This document shows, piece by piece, positions 27,423 through 42,613 of a stretch of 64,000 nucleotides of DNA (positions within the stretch are counted from its first letter, which is position 1; the number at the start of each line of letters is the position of its first letter). Source of the stretch: Microbacteriaceae bacterium VKM Ac-2855. GTDB lineage: Bacteria; Actinomycetota; Actinomycetes; Actinomycetales; Microbacteriaceae. The position numbers and the translations under genes are program-made. The DNA lies in contig JABMLG010000011.1 of assembly GCA_013204985.1 (NCBI GenBank), positions 1 to 64,000 on the forward strand. The letters are read 5' to 3'. A model generated the notes under the pieces. That model was not told the DNA's origin. It did no database searches and saw only the letters and a program-made list of their open reading frames with translations.

Positions 27423-29453
27423 ATGAACGACACCATCTCGAACCTGCTCACCGAGCACCGCCGATTCCCCGTGCCGGCGGCGTTCGCCGAGCAGGCGAAC
27501 GTCACCGCCGAGGCCTACGGGCGAGCGGATGCGGATCCGGTCGCCTTCTGGGAAGAGGCAGCGCGCCGCCTCGATTGGCACACTCCGTGGCACACGGCGC
27601 ACACCTGGAAGCCCGCGACCACTCGACCCGACGGCACCCTGAGCATCCCCGAGGCGACCTGGTTCGAGGGCGGGACGCTCAACGTCGCCGTGAACTGCGT
27701 CGACCGGCACGTCGACGCGGGCCGTGGCGACAAGGTGGCGTTGTACTTCGAGGGCGAGCCCGGCGATCGGCGCGCGATCAGCTACGCGCAACTGCAGAAG
27801 GATGTCGCCAAAGCCGCCCACGCGCTGACCGCGTTGGGTATCGGCAAGGGCGACCGCGTCGTGGTGTACCTGCCGGTGATCCCGGAGACCGTGGTGATCA
27901 CCCTCGCGATCGCGCGCATCGGAGCGATCCACTCGCTCGTCTTCGGCGGCTTCTCCGCCGAGGCGGTCCGCTTCCGCGTCGAAGACACCGGAGCCAAGCT
28001 GCTGGTGACGACCGACGGCCAGTTCCGCCGCGGATCCGCGGTGCCGGTCAAGGCGAACGCCGACCAGGCCGTCGCGGGCGAGAACAACATCGAGCACGTG
28101 CTGGTGGTGCGTCGCACCGGCCGCGTCGATCAGCCCGAGACGGATATCCCGTGGACCGAGGGTCGAGACGTCTGGTGGCACGACATCGTCGACACGCAGC
28201 CCGACGTGCACGAGCCCGAGTACTTCGACGCCGAGACCCCGCTCTTCATCATCTACACCTCCGGCACCACCGGTAAGCCCAAGGGTCTGGTGCACACCAG
28301 CGGCGGCTACCTCACCCAGGCGAACTACACGCACTGGGCCGTCTTCGACGCGAAGCCGGACGACGTTCACTGGTGCACCGCCGACCTCGCCTGGGTCACC
28401 GCGCACACCTACGAGATCTACGGCCCGCTCTCGAACGGCGTCACCCAGGTCATCTACGAGGGCACCCCGAACACCCCGCATCAGGCGCGGCACTTCGAGA
28501 TCATCCAGCGCTACGGCGTAACGACCTACTACACGGCCCCCACGTTGATCCGCACCCTGATGACCTGGTTCCCGGATGGCGTGCCCGCCGAGTACGACCT
28601 GTCGAGTCTGCGCCTGCTCGGCACGGTCGGCGAGTCGATCAACCCGGAGGCCTGGGTCTGGTTCCACGAGCAGATCGGCGCTGGCCGCTGCCCGATCGTC
28701 GACACCTGGTGGCAGTCCGAGACCGGCGCTGCCGTGATGTGCCCGTTGCCCGGCGTCTCGACCCTCAAGCCCGGCTCCTCACTCGGCGCGCTGCCCGGGC
28801 TGCGGGCGCTCGTCGTGGACGACCGGGGCGAGCGGGTGCCGAACGGATCCGGCGGCTACCTGGTCGTGGAACGCACCGGCCCCTCGCTCGCACGCACCAT
28901 CTGGGGCAACCCCGAGCGCTACCGCGACTCGTACTGGGAGCGCTTCGCCGCGCAGGGCTACTTCTTCTCAGGCGACGGCGCGAAGTACGACGCCGACGGC
29001 GACATCTGGGTGCTCGGCCGCGTCGACGACGTGATCAACGTCTCCGGTCACCGTCTCTCGACGATCGAGATCGAGTCGGCGCTGGTGTCGCATCCGTCAG
29101 TCGGCGAGGCCGGCGTCGTGGGCGTGCACGACGCGACGACGGGCCAGGCGATCGCCGCGTTCGTGATCCCCTCCGATGACGCGGTCGACCGCGCCTCCGA
29201 GGACCCGGCCTACTGGAACTCGCTCGCCCACGATCTCTCGGCCGCGTTGCGGTCCCACGTCGCCCACGAGATCGGCCCCATCGCGAAGCCGCGCGACGTG
29301 GTGATCGTGCCCGACCTGCCCAAGACCCGCTCGGGCAAGATCATGCGACGCCTGCTCGGCGACATCACGGATTCGCGTCCGCTCGGCGACGTCACGAGCC
29401 TGCAGGACGACACCGTTCCGGCGCGGATCGCGGCCATCGTCGCCGCCCGCTGA
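27423..29453 (+). CDS. acs: Acetyl-CoA synthetase
   Basis: 676 aa with AAGGAG upstream. AMP-forming acetate:CoA ligase of the ANL superfamily. Core motifs: YTSGTTGKPKG (P-loop, A3), TWWQSETGA (A5), YFFSGDGAKYDADGDIWVLGRVDDVINVSGHRLST (A7-A8 with the hinge Asp/Arg), and PKTRSGKIMRRLL (A10), whose Lys is the catalytic residue controlled by acetylation. W-x-W residues in the substrate pocket fit acetate. It makes acetyl-CoA from acetate in the cytoplasm. It follows the ABC operon by 66 bp but has its own ribosome site and is probably independent. Confidence 0.93.
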   Translation: MNDTISNLLTEHRRFPVPAAFAEQANVTAEAYGRADADPVAFWEEAARRLDWHTPWHTAHTWKPATTRPDGTLSIPEATWFEGGTLNVAVNCVDRHVDAGRGDKVALYFEGEPGDRRAISYAQLQKDVAKAAHALTALGIGKGDRVVVYLPVIPETVVITLAIARIGAIHSLVFGGFSAEAVRFRVEDTGAKLLVTTDGQFRRGSAVPVKANADQAVAGENNIEHVLVVRRTGRVDQPETDIPWTEGRDVWWHDIVDTQPDVHEPEYFDAETPLFIIYTSGTTGKPKGLVHTSGGYLTQANYTHWAVFDAKPDDVHWCTADLAWVTAHTYEIYGPLSNGVTQVIYEGTPNTPHQARHFEIIQRYGVTTYYTAPTLIRTLMTWFPDGVPAEYDLSSLRLLGTVGESINPEAWVWFHEQIGAGRCPIVDTWWQSETGAAVMCPLPGVSTLKPGSSLGALPGLRALVVDDRGERVPNGSGGYLVVERTGPSLARTIWGNPERYRDSYWERFAAQGYFFSGDGAKYDADGDIWVLGRVDDVINVSGHRLSTIEIESALVSHPSVGEAGVVGVHDATTGQAIAAFVIPSDDAVDRASEDPAYWNSLAHDLSAALRSHVAHEIGPIAKPRDVVIVPDLPKTRSGKIMRRLLGDITDSRPLGDVTSLQDDTVPARIAAIVAAR

Positions 29454-29567
29454 TCACGGGCCGCCCCCGCCTGTCGGGCACCGGTCGGTCCGCCCATCCG
29501 CAGGTATCCGCCGAATCGGTTCCGGGGCACCGATCACGCCTAAGGTGAGCGCAACAGAGGAGTGCGC

Positions 29568-29906
29568 ATGGGCACACTGACGTACGGCAACCACGGGTTC
29601 GAGGTCGCTTTCGACGACCGCGCCCTGTTGCACTTGCAGATCGTGATCACCGGCAAGCTCCGCCGACGCGAGAGCTTCGTGTTCTCGTGGAGCAACTCAC
29701 ACGAAGTGGGAAGCGGGCGCACCGCGATCTGGCTGGACCCGAGCAGCACCATCATCTACCACTACTTCGGCAGTCGCTCACCGTCGGTGAATCGCGCGTG
29801 GCTCGACGTCCTGACCCAGTCCGCCGATGCCGGGAGCGGCCTCATCTTCACCCCCGAACCGCCGCTCGGCGCAACCGACGTCGTCACGACGAGGGGTCGC
29901 GCGTGA
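29568..29906 (+). CDS. DUF7882 family small protein, translationally coupled to rhodopsin
   Basis: 112 aa from ATG 29568 with AGAGGAG upstream; a GTG at 29562 is possible but too close to the ribosome site. MGTLTYGNHGFEVAFDDRAL, LHLQIVITGKLRRRESFVFS, and FGSRSPSVNRAWLDVLTQSA match the small Microbacteriaceae family DUF7882, whose members are often mislabelled as ATP-dependent DNA ligase although they lack ligase motifs. The function is unknown. A -10-like TAAGGT is at 29541-29546. Its stop TGA overlaps the GTG start of the rhodopsin gene (GTGA), so the two proteins are made from one message. I infer a shared physiological setting, not a direct interaction. Confidence 0.82.
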   Translation: MGTLTYGNHGFEVAFDDRALLHLQIVITGKLRRRESFVFSWSNSHEVGSGRTAIWLDPSSTIIYHYFGSRSPSVNRAWLDVLTQSADAGSGLIFTPEPPLGATDVVTTRGRA

Positions 29907-30847
29907 TCGCCGTTCCGTGGGAGGCCACGCTGACACCCGCCGAACACCTGGTCATCGTGTACTTCCTGGCCGTCGCGGCCCTCGCTCTCACCGCCGGCTT
30001 CATCCGCGCGGTCGTCACGCGCGACGAGGTCGGCTCGCGCTATCGCACCGCGGTGGTGGCGCGGATCTGCGTGCTGGGCATCGCCGCCCTGAGCTACGGA
30101 GCGCTGCTGTGGGCCGCAGCGACCGGCTATGACGTCGGGCCCGACGGCTATGTGCCCAACGCCGAGAGCGTGATGACGATGGCGCCGCGCTACATGGACT
30201 GGTCGGTGACCGTCCCGCTGCTGACCGTCGAGTTGCTCGCCGTGACGACGCTCTCCGGCGCGCTTCTGCAACGCACACGATTCATCGCCGTCATCGGCTC
30301 CTTCCTGATGATCTTCGCCGGCTTCCTCGGCGCCTTCGTCTTCGGCGCCGACCCGATCGGGCTGCTGATCGCCGGTGCCGTGAGTTCCGTGTTCTGGATC
30401 ATCGTGTCCGTCGTGCTGCTGCGCGCGGCTCAGGCGTCGCTGCCCGACCTGACCACCGAGTCCGCGCTCCTTCTTCGCAACGCGAGCCGGCTGCTCGTGG
30501 GCGGCTGGGTCGTGTATCCGCTCGTCTACGTCGTCCCGCTGTTCGGCGCCGGCGGAGCCTGGACGACCGGTATCCAGATCGCGCTCTGCCTGACGGACGT
30601 GACCGTGAAGCTCGGCTTCAGCACGCTCGCGCACCGGATCGCGAAGCTGCGCACCGCGGAAGACGTGCGCGCCGGGAAGGATGTTCATCCCGAGTCGATC
30701 TGGATCTCGTCGATCAAGCGGTCGGATGCTGGTCGGCCACGCGAGGTCTTCCTGCCGGCGGATGCGTACGCGCACCCCCTGCGCCCCCGGCCGCCGATGA
30801 CCGCGGCTGTGCCCGCCGAGAGCGACATCGCACCCGACCTGACATAG
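29903..30847 (+). CDS. Microbial (type 1) rhodopsin with DTE proton-pump motif
   Basis: 314 aa from GTG 29903, overlapping the DUF7882 stop by GTGA. Seven helices are visible. Helix 3 reads RYMDWSVTVPLLTVE: R96, D99 (Schiff-base counter-ion/proton acceptor), T103 and E110 (proton donor) give the DTE motif of proteorhodopsin- and xanthorhodopsin-type outward proton pumps. Helix 6 has W202-VVY-P206. Helix 7 has D232-VTV-K236, K236 being the retinal-binding lysine. Helix 2 has S64-Y65 where many DTE pumps have His-Tyr. The ~60-residue cytoplasmic C-terminal tail is long and ends in ESDIAPDLT. No carotenoid or retinal synthesis gene is in the window. A 206-bp repeat array starts right after the stop. 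It likely makes a light-driven proton gradient. Confidence 0.9.
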   Translation: MIAVPWEATLTPAEHLVIVYFLAVAALALTAGFIRAVVTRDEVGSRYRTAVVARICVLGIAALSYGALLWAAATGYDVGPDGYVPNAESVMTMAPRYMDWSVTVPLLTVELLAVTTLSGALLQRTRFIAVIGSFLMIFAGFLGAFVFGADPIGLLIAGAVSSVFWIIVSVVLLRAAQASLPDLTTESALLLRNASRLLVGGWVVYPLVYVVPLFGAGGAWTTGIQIALCLTDVTVKLGFSTLAHRIAKLRTAEDVRAGKDVHPESIWISSIKRSDAGRPREVFLPADAYAHPLRPRPPMTAAVPAESDIAPDLT

Positions 30848-30863
30848 GCGCGCTCCGAGATCG

Positions 30864-32120
30864 CCCTGTCGACGGGCGCGAATGGCTCGCGCCCGCACAG
30901 CGGAAGGCGCCTCGCGCCGCACGAGACCGCGGCCGAGGCGTCCCTTCGATCGGCAGGGCACGCACCCCACGCCGCAGACCCACCGCGGGATCCGCGTGAT
31001 CCCGGGGGTCCGACACCGGCCGGGGCAGCTTCACCCGGGGTCACTGCCGACCAACGGGACACCCGGACCACGCCCCTCGCTGCGGTGCGTCCTCTCACGC
31101 GCACACCGGAAGGCGCCGCGCGCCGTAGGAGACCCCGGCCGAGGCGTCCCTTCGATCGGCAGGGCAGGCACCCCACGCCGCAGACCCACGGCAGGATCCG
31201 CATGATCCCGGGGGTCCGACACCGGCCCGAGCGGCTTCACCCGGGGTCACTGCCGACCGACGGGACACCCGGACCACGCCCCCCGCAGACGTACGTCCTC
31301 TCACCCGCACAGCGGAAGGTGCCGCGCGCCGCACGAGACACCAGCCGAGGCGTCCCTTCGATCGGCAGGGCACGCACGCCCCGCTACATCTCCCCGGCAA
31401 CATCGGCATGATCCCGGGGGTCCGACACCGGCCCGAGCGGCTTCACCCGGGGTCACTGCCGACCGACGGGACACCCTGACCACGCCCCCCGCAGACGTAC
31501 GTCCTCTCACCCGCACAGCGGAAGGCGCCGCGCGCCATAGGACACCCCGGCCGAAACGTCCCTTCAATCGGCAGGGCACGCGCCCCACGCCGCAGACCCA
31601 CGGCAGGATCCGCATGATCCCGGGGGTCCGACACCGGCCCGAGCGGCTTCACCCGGGGTCACTGCCGACCAACGGGACACCCTGACCACGCCCCCCGCAG
31701 ACGTACGTCCTCTCACCCGCACAGCGGAAGGTGCCGCGCGCCGTAGGAGACCCCGGCCGAGGCGGCCCTTCGATCGGCACGCCAGGCGCCCCAGGCCGCA
31801 GACCCACCGCGGGATCCGCGTGATCCCGGGGGTCCGACACCGGCCCGAGCGGCTTCACCCGGGGTCACTGCCGACCAACGGGACACCCTGACCACGCGCC
31901 CGATTCGGAGCGTCGTCTCACCCGCACAGCGGAAGGCGCCGCGCGCCGTAGGAGACCCCGGCCGAGGCGTCCCTTCGATCGGCAGGGCACACGCCCCACG
32001 CCGCAGACCCACCACGGGATCCGCGTGATCCCGGGGGTCCGACACCGGCCCGAGCGGCTTCACCCGGGGTCACTGCCGACCGACGGGACACCCTGACCAC
32101 GCGCCCGCTTCGGCATGGCG
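30864..32120. repeat. Tandem array of 206-bp repeats downstream of the rhodopsin gene
   Basis: The word CCCGGGGGTCCGACACCGG begins at 31001, 31207, 31413, 31619, 31825 and 32030, giving periods of 206, 206, 206, 206 and 205. A partial unit opens the array (GCCCGCACAGCGGAAGGCGC at ~30,890). Each unit holds a near-perfect stem TGATCCCGG / CCGGGGTCA, a GTCCCTTCGATCGGCAGGGC word and CGCCGCAGACCCAC. 206 is not a multiple of three, and the frames repeated on the minus strand have no start or homology, so the array is non-coding. No gene is seen in 30,848-32,221. A diverged copy lies at 42,085-42,370. Confidence 0.93.
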
Positions 32121-42084: not shown

Positions 42085-42370
42085 CTTATGGCCGCGCCCG
42101 ACCGTTACCGCGGCCGACGCCGACCGAGGGCGACATCGCTCCCGATCTGGCGTGCGGCCCCGGCCGGGCACACGCTCCTGCATCGCGCGGAGCGGATCAC
42201 CCCCGCAGCGGGTCGCGCTGAGCGGCGCGACGTGCGGCGTGCCAGGCGTCCCGTCGGTCGGCAGGCCAGACGCCCCACGCCGCACGTCCTCTGCGAGACC
42301 CGCGCAATCTAGCGGTTCGACAGCGACCCGGGAAACTACACCCACGGAGGCTGCCGATCGACGGAACGCC
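42085..42370 (+). pseudogene. Decayed copy of the rhodopsin 3' end plus 206-bp repeat
   Basis: 42,085-42,145 resembles the last codons of the rhodopsin gene: ACCGCGGCCGACGCCGACCG, then GGGCGACATCGCTCCCGAT against the rhodopsin's GAGCGACATCGCACCCGAC, decoding to E/S-G/S-DIAPDL. The region after it follows the 206-bp repeat in order: GGCGTCCCGTCGGTCGGCAG, CGCCCCACGCCGCA, GTTCGACAGCGACCCGGG, GCTGCCGATCGACGGAACG. Identity looks like roughly three quarters by eye. No seven-helix frame remains. The rest of the 42,001-42,613 gap holds no gene. Confidence 0.6.
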
Positions 42371-42613
42371 CGGGCCCAGCTGTCCGCAGTCGCCGATCGG
42401 AGACGGATCGCCTCCGGAATCGATGCGAAAAACCCGTTCTGATCTGCACTGACGCCCGATCTACCAACCGATCCACGCCCGAGCGCCCGGATACCGGTGG
42501 ATGCTCGGGGAGATCAGTGACCGAACGGAGACAGACTGACGGTCGCTCTATCGGAACCACGCCGACGCCTTCATCCGCAGGGTCTTGCGCCCGCGCATCC
42601 GCAGGGTCTAACG
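42371..42613. other. Intergenic leader of the ArsR operon
   Basis: No gene is seen. A direct repeat GCATCCGCAGGGTCT-like word occurs twice (near 42,574 and 42,595), just before the promoter. The -10-like TAACGT is at 42609-42614. Confidence 0.4.

Follow-up and report, generated by a model that had tools for sequence, protein, structure and literature searches.

A CryoRhodopsin-type gene and its overlapping DUF7882 neighbour in a Microbacteriaceae genome, and the DUF7882 lineage found beside such rhodopsins

Described systems and the rhodopsin of this locus

Sensory rhodopsin II is accompanied by a cognate partner that carries its signal, HtrII, a membrane protein that regulates flagella. A comparable pairing, in which the partner may carry the signal, has been described for the CryoRhodopsins (CryoRs), a Microbacteriaceae group of cold origin, with the difference that this partner is a small protein, said to be soluble in water (Lamm et al. 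2025, PMC12227055). In that account, a coding sequence adjoining or overlapping the CryoR gene was found in all CryoR genomes analysed and was named a putative cytoplasmic transducer. AlphaFold3 models were presented there of the transducer pentamer, likened to bacterial pleckstrin homology (PH) rings, and of that pentamer bound to the CryoR C-terminus, in which a short C-terminal strand docks into the ring, and a new Pfam family covering the putative transducers was deposited as DUF7882 (PF25355). A full-text search of the open literature for DUF7882 matched this paper alone. Here we examined a rhodopsin gene that overlaps a DUF7882 gene at positions 29568 to 30847 of a 64,000-nucleotide stretch of contig JABMLG010000011.1 from Microbacteriaceae bacterium VKM Ac-2855 (the window, meaning the whole stretch). 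The initial annotation of this DNA had supposed that such a partner would be new; because Lamm et al. had already reported the coding sequence beside CryoR, modelled the complex and deposited DUF7882, the pair is not new as a kind, and it is a further member of the published CryoR/DUF7882 pair.

As set out in the same paper (PMC12227055), CryoRs are defined by a helix-B arginine at the position of bacteriorhodopsin T46 (R57 of CryoR1), stated there to be absent from every other reported rhodopsin. A glutamate occupies the proton-donor position in 39 of 40 CryoRs, the group has an unusual central channel, and its members are described as probably sensory for ultraviolet (UV) light, with a minutes-slow photocycle, photochromic UV photoswitching and inward proton transport. 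The window rhodopsin (314 residues; 29903..30847, forward strand; GTG start at 29903, stop at 30847; PF01036, 84.9 bits) was compared by phmmer with all Protein Data Bank (PDB) chains. Its best matches were CryoR1 (8r0k and four more entries; 1.8e-102, 346 bits) and then CryoR2 (8r0p and three more entries; 2.1e-101, 342.5 bits), while the next solved rhodopsin, psXR, scored 83.4 bits, leaving a gap of at least 259 bits. Both the alignment and the motif column placed R54 (codon 30062..30064, forward strand) at R57 of CryoR1 (8r0k) in helix B, whereas this site is Ala or Ser in 16 higher-scoring PF01036 rows between L010 and L038, which we take to be pumps. The residues R96, D99, T103, E110, D232 and K236 are all present, as had been recorded initially; the helix-B arginine was overlooked at that stage, and it changes the classification. 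The resulting motif, RRDTEDK, agrees with the CryoR pattern RRXXXDK with Glu at the proton-donor position, and the C-terminus is elongated, the CryoR1 and CryoR2 alignments reaching query residues 304 and 313 of 314. Judged by its sequence, the window rhodopsin is a CryoRhodopsin and not an ordinary DTE pump, because CryoR1 and CryoR2 are its best solved relatives and the helix-B arginine is present. The group being slow, photochromic and inward-transporting, the earlier description as a light-driven (DTE) proton pump is therefore unsupported.

The window pair shares with that of Lamm et al. (PMC12227055) the helix-B arginine, the long C-terminus, the adjoining or overlapping DUF7882 gene and the Microbacteriaceae host, and it differs in being another sequence, 52-60% identical to 14 fuller Arg-type loci. 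Its seven-letter motif is the one reported for CryoR5 of Subtercola boreus (PMC12227055); four S. boreus loci (L043, L044, L046, L048), to which CryoR5 was not matched by accession, are 54-56% identical to the window rhodopsin. The window genome falls in the same family as the Subtercola and Amnibacterium genomes. The nearest rhodopsins without the arginine were DSE and other Microbacteriaceae rhodopsins (Amnibacterium L052 and L055; Frondihabitans plasmid NZ_CP014514), several of which share the tail start HPESxWIS. Their helix-B residue is Ser, Gly or Ala, inspection by eye showed no tail segment resembling REVYLA, and the fetched locus contained no DUF7882.

Co-occurrence of the helix-B arginine, the tail segment and DUF7882

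We sought the same association in other genomes. A PF01036 match was present in 84 of 299 Microbacteriaceae genomes, and every genome whose rhodopsin scored 62 to 109 bits in this survey was examined, a set of 26 that includes the window's (85.6). With the window protein, 42 rhodopsins were found in this set, alongside 133 DUF7882 matches, a few of which are pieces of one gene and two of which are below the cut-off. Seventeen of the 42 rhodopsins (16 intact and one broken, G203:C45) had a DUF7882 match at most 185 bases away, measured between matched stretches, and all 17 were Arg-type. The other 25 were unlinked, the nearest DUF7882 on the same contig lying 18.5 kb away; in the 16 of these 25 whose motif was read, the helix-B residue was Ser, Gly or Ala. 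With all 16 intact Arg-type rhodopsins in the set linked, the adjacency is far above chance. The refuting condition named in the initial annotation, DUF7882 genes scattered with no enrichment beside rhodopsins, received both answers: enrichment beside CryoRs is complete, yet 116 of the 133 DUF7882 matches lie away from rhodopsins and 17 adjoin one.

Among the fetched loci, all 23 intact, non-redundant Arg rhodopsins had both a DUF7882 neighbour and a REVYLA-like tail segment (REINLA in the variant L056), and none of 32 non-Arg rhodopsins had a DUF7882 gene in the fetched locus. These counts leave out L054 (cut by a contig end), L116 (a broken pair) and 14 of the 30 loci L009-L038, which were beyond phmmer reach at 1e-10, and contig ends shorten some of the loci that were counted. 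In the window rhodopsin the segment reads REVFLP (residues 280-285; 30740..30757, forward strand) and lies in the C-terminal tail, in an alignment block conserved among CryoRs. The same adjacency was noted in Subtercola, Frigoribacterium and Herbiconiux records, and visual comparison of eight CryoR loci (the window, L204-L209 and L056) showed differing flanking genes; the gene calls for these loci came from a script that missed some DUF7882 genes. The published idea having been tested in this way on more genomes, the helix-B arginine, the tail segment and the partner gene were found to come and go together. At L116 (G203:C45:1-6000), a broken CryoR with an internal stop was observed with a shortened DUF7882 match adjoining it.

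DUF7882 was upstream on the same strand in 21 of the 23 linked loci. The two remaining pairs (L063, L068) were convergent and still carried the tail segment and the neighbour, which refines the published wording "next, or even overlapping" (PMC12227055). In the window, the DUF7882 gene (112 residues; 29568..29906, forward strand; ATG at 29568, TGA at 29904-29906) scored 118.7 bits against PF25355, for which the curated cut-off is 27. Its overlap with the rhodopsin gene, pointed out in the initial annotation, was confirmed: four bases, GTGA, are common to both, the rhodopsin start codon beginning one base before the DUF7882 stop codon. A possible ribosome-binding site for the rhodopsin, GAGGGG (29891..29896, forward strand), was read from the letters alone inside the DUF7882 3' end. 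In the window genome, synthesis of the two proteins is probably linked through this overlap. Across the 21 same-strand pairs, with rhodopsin starts picked by rule rather than measured, the nearest plausible start overlapped the DUF7882 stop in six (eight when L061 and L040 are given ATG/GTG starts further upstream) and lay 2 to 133 bases after it in the other 15. The two-gene unit is conserved across genomes, and the stop-start overlap is not. Coupled translation had been offered as the key to a shared role; given these counts and the two convergent pairs, that argument is not supported, and the shared role itself is supported by the strict co-occurrence and by a CryoR-linked clade of DUF7882.

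That clade belongs to a family with many copies per genome. The window genome carries 11 DUF7882 copies in 4.7 Mb, and DUF7882 was found in 13 of 296 sampled genomes of the class, all 13 in the window's family; the PF01036 survey had covered ten of these and matched no rhodopsin in them. Another genome of the same family, G164, had no DUF7882 match among the rows listed. In a first tree of 133 rows, 21 of the 23 linked copies fell in one group of 26 (Shimodaira-Hasegawa-like approximate likelihood ratio test, SH-aLRT, 80), and in a second tree of 52 rows chosen from the 133, made without L116, the same 21 fell in a clade of 25 (support 98/91). The window copy lies within this clade, as do four unlinked copies (L101, L104, L137, L137_2), and the copies from the two convergent pairs, L063 and L068, fall outside it. 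An independent capture of DUF7882 in their genus, g77, was considered and rejected as a conclusion, a single origin not being rejected (approximately unbiased test; p = 0.419). Counted without the four unlinked clade members, L116, L063 and L068, the linked clade was distinguished by T28 (21/21 vs 2/105 others), Y64 (21/21 vs 8/105) and F94 (21/21 vs 5/105), with S60 in 20 and T61 in 18 of its 21 members; the window protein carries all five. These data point to DUF7882 as a Microbacteriaceae family of which one lineage probably became the CryoR partner, while the majority of its genes would act in settings that involve no rhodopsin.

Several further arrangements of DUF7882 genes were noted. 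In L204 (G077:C4) and L205 (G238:C1), a CryoR gene is convergent with a DUF7882 gene that is without the signature residues of the other linked copies. L201 (G283:C99:613-1587) holds two tandem DUF7882 genes of the CryoR-linked clade near a contig start, with no rhodopsin in view. Two DUF7882 genes lie close together in convergent orientation in the window genome (G000:C20:49293-49945) and in IMG/VR contigs L217 and L218, which may include host flanks, and in divergent orientation in L215 and L220.

Possible roles of the DUF7882 partner

We consider it probable that the rhodopsin is a CryoR-type photosensor and that the DUF7882 protein is dedicated to it as a cytoplasmic partner, a signal being passed through the rhodopsin tail to a DUF7882 ring. 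The rhodopsin's identity, the strict gene pairing, its concurrence with the tail segment and the separate partner lineage are observations of this analysis; the steps of signalling are extrapolated from described CryoRs. The structure and photocycle of CryoR1 and CryoR2 are established, light bringing them into a very long-lived blue-shifted state (PMC12227055), and the window rhodopsin would be expected to enter such a state as well. Following the published AlphaFold3 model, its C-terminal tail may lend a short strand to the DUF7882 ring under the membrane, for which REVFLP (residues 280-285) is our guess. A light-driven change on the cytoplasmic side could pass through the tail to the ring, and the disordered C-termini of the ring might contact an effector. 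An AlphaFold2 model of the window DUF7882 (pLDDT 83.6, pTM 0.73) gave a predicted order of strand-strand-helix-strand-strand-strand-helix, with low confidence for the last nine residues. A PDB search up to E = 1 detected no DUF7882-like chain, and among the Foldseek-ranked PDB chains that were re-aligned none was convincing as a PH-like fold for the monomer.

A role in assembly or capping suits the data almost as well as signal transfer. If DUF7882 served the CryoR pentamer by helping it to assemble, stay stable or reach its place in the membrane, the strict pairing, the contact with the tail and a cap over the central channel would be explained as well as by a transducer. We nevertheless regard this as rather unlikely. 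CryoRs are reported to be easily expressed in E. coli (PMC12227055), CryoR1 and CryoR2 have been solved, and the PDB holds no DUF7882-like chain, from which we infer that CryoRs fold without DUF7882; the predicted disorder of the DUF7882 C-terminus also suggests further contacts.

A second neighbour was also considered. The gene calls around unlinked DUF7882 copies revealed a recurring protein of about 110 residues (alignment A1; members include L040:7063-7398, L050:7015-7356 and L126:2644-3012). None of 13 members matched Pfam and none of four tested members exceeded an NCBIfam cut-off; the PDB matches were weak, to repeat proteins, at E 0.012 or worse. In the 26 genomes, 37 of 87 matches to this unnamed family lay at most 1.5 kb from a DUF7882 match, in 20 genomes, where about 0.46 would be expected assuming 91 Mb in total. 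Of these 37, 12 had been picked as neighbours to seed the alignment (25/75 without the seeds), and orthologs do not count as independent where the genomes are related. That DUF7882 and this family form a general two-protein Microbacteriaceae device, with CryoR as one of several inputs, is in our judgement unlikely. In its favour are this proximity, the position of the unnamed family directly after CryoR in Subtercola sp. RYN_59 (L040) and S. vilae (L050), and a predicted strand and helix order that is the same in both families at nearly the same positions. However, the unnamed family was found in only 2 of the 23 CryoR loci (flanks of 1.5 to 6 kb) and not in the window, 50 of its 87 matches were not near DUF7882, and its model, built from two sequences, is weak (pLDDT 65.0). 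Homology of the two families was tried by profile comparison and was not significant (hhalign probability 0.1% with 16 and 13 rows; 0.6%, P = 0.096, with 133 rows, 102 used, against 16), the best alignment being collinear.

On a less probable reading, DUF7882 may not be a family of rhodopsin transducers as such and may be a Microbacteriaceae-specific set of ring-forming adaptors whose commoner partner is this undescribed family, CryoR being a light input that captured one lineage through a tail strand. Two Subtercola loci hold all three genes. The unnamed family offers a concrete lead to the output of CryoR signalling.

An ordinary DTE outward proton pump with DUF7882 as an unrelated passenger appears very improbable. 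D99, T103, E110, D232 and K236 occur in many bacterial pumps, and we presume that they would denote a pump, and DUF7882 is common away from rhodopsins. Against this stand the helix-B arginine, the wide gap in score between CryoR1/CryoR2 and any other solved rhodopsin, and a linkage that is complete for Arg-type rhodopsins with none seen for others. Chance adjacency in the window genome, for which its many DUF7882 copies and the confinement of CryoR to one of the 15 genomes of its genus might speak, has virtually no likelihood left and is refuted by the recurrence of the arrangement in 23 of 23 intact cases, those of Subtercola, Frigoribacterium and Herbiconiux included.

Retinal supply and surroundings of the locus

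The initial annotation had noted no retinal or carotenoid genes nearby, and this was upheld as far as searched: the window's contig (C3) gave no crtI-family match, and the genome no BCD/Blh (PF15461) match. Its suggestion that such genes be sought elsewhere in the genome was borne out for the carotenoid part, contig C20 carrying what we read as a C50 carotenoid cluster. This comprises a crtE-like polyprenyl-synthase frame that reached no NCBIfam cut-off, a single open frame of 836 codons (L200:5592-8102) joining a phytoene-synthase-like part to a crtI part (TIGR02734, over the cut-off), two lycopene-cyclase-domain proteins and a UbiA-type prenyltransferase. The retinal-forming part was not borne out. 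The RPE65-type family (PF03055) was matched in none of 13 Arg-type CryoR genomes, the window's included, and BCD/Blh was matched in six of the 13 and was absent from two other genomes checked alongside. As the window genome has neither a PF15461 nor a PF03055 match, its retinal would come from an unrecognised enzyme or from outside.

Within the window's genus, CryoR was found in the window's own genome alone (1 of 15), and two others had a different rhodopsin of 32% identity. The open frame upstream of DUF7882 (27423-29453) is acetyl-CoA synthetase-like by eye. For an empty-site test of recent gain, the end of this gene (acs) was matched in all 14 other genus genomes (83-90%); no clean empty site was shown, only the closest genome, G305, having been read, with its match 267 bases from a contig end. 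Scanning 29300-31100 yielded no promoter-like site and one terminator-like site, inside the rhodopsin gene, with 0.4 expected; scans of this kind fit high-GC actinobacteria poorly. Directly after the rhodopsin gene lies a tandem repeat array with a 206-base unit (30892-32106; 5.9 copies, 90% matches), and it was also noted that 42107-42376 of the window resembles 30800-31069 (69% match).
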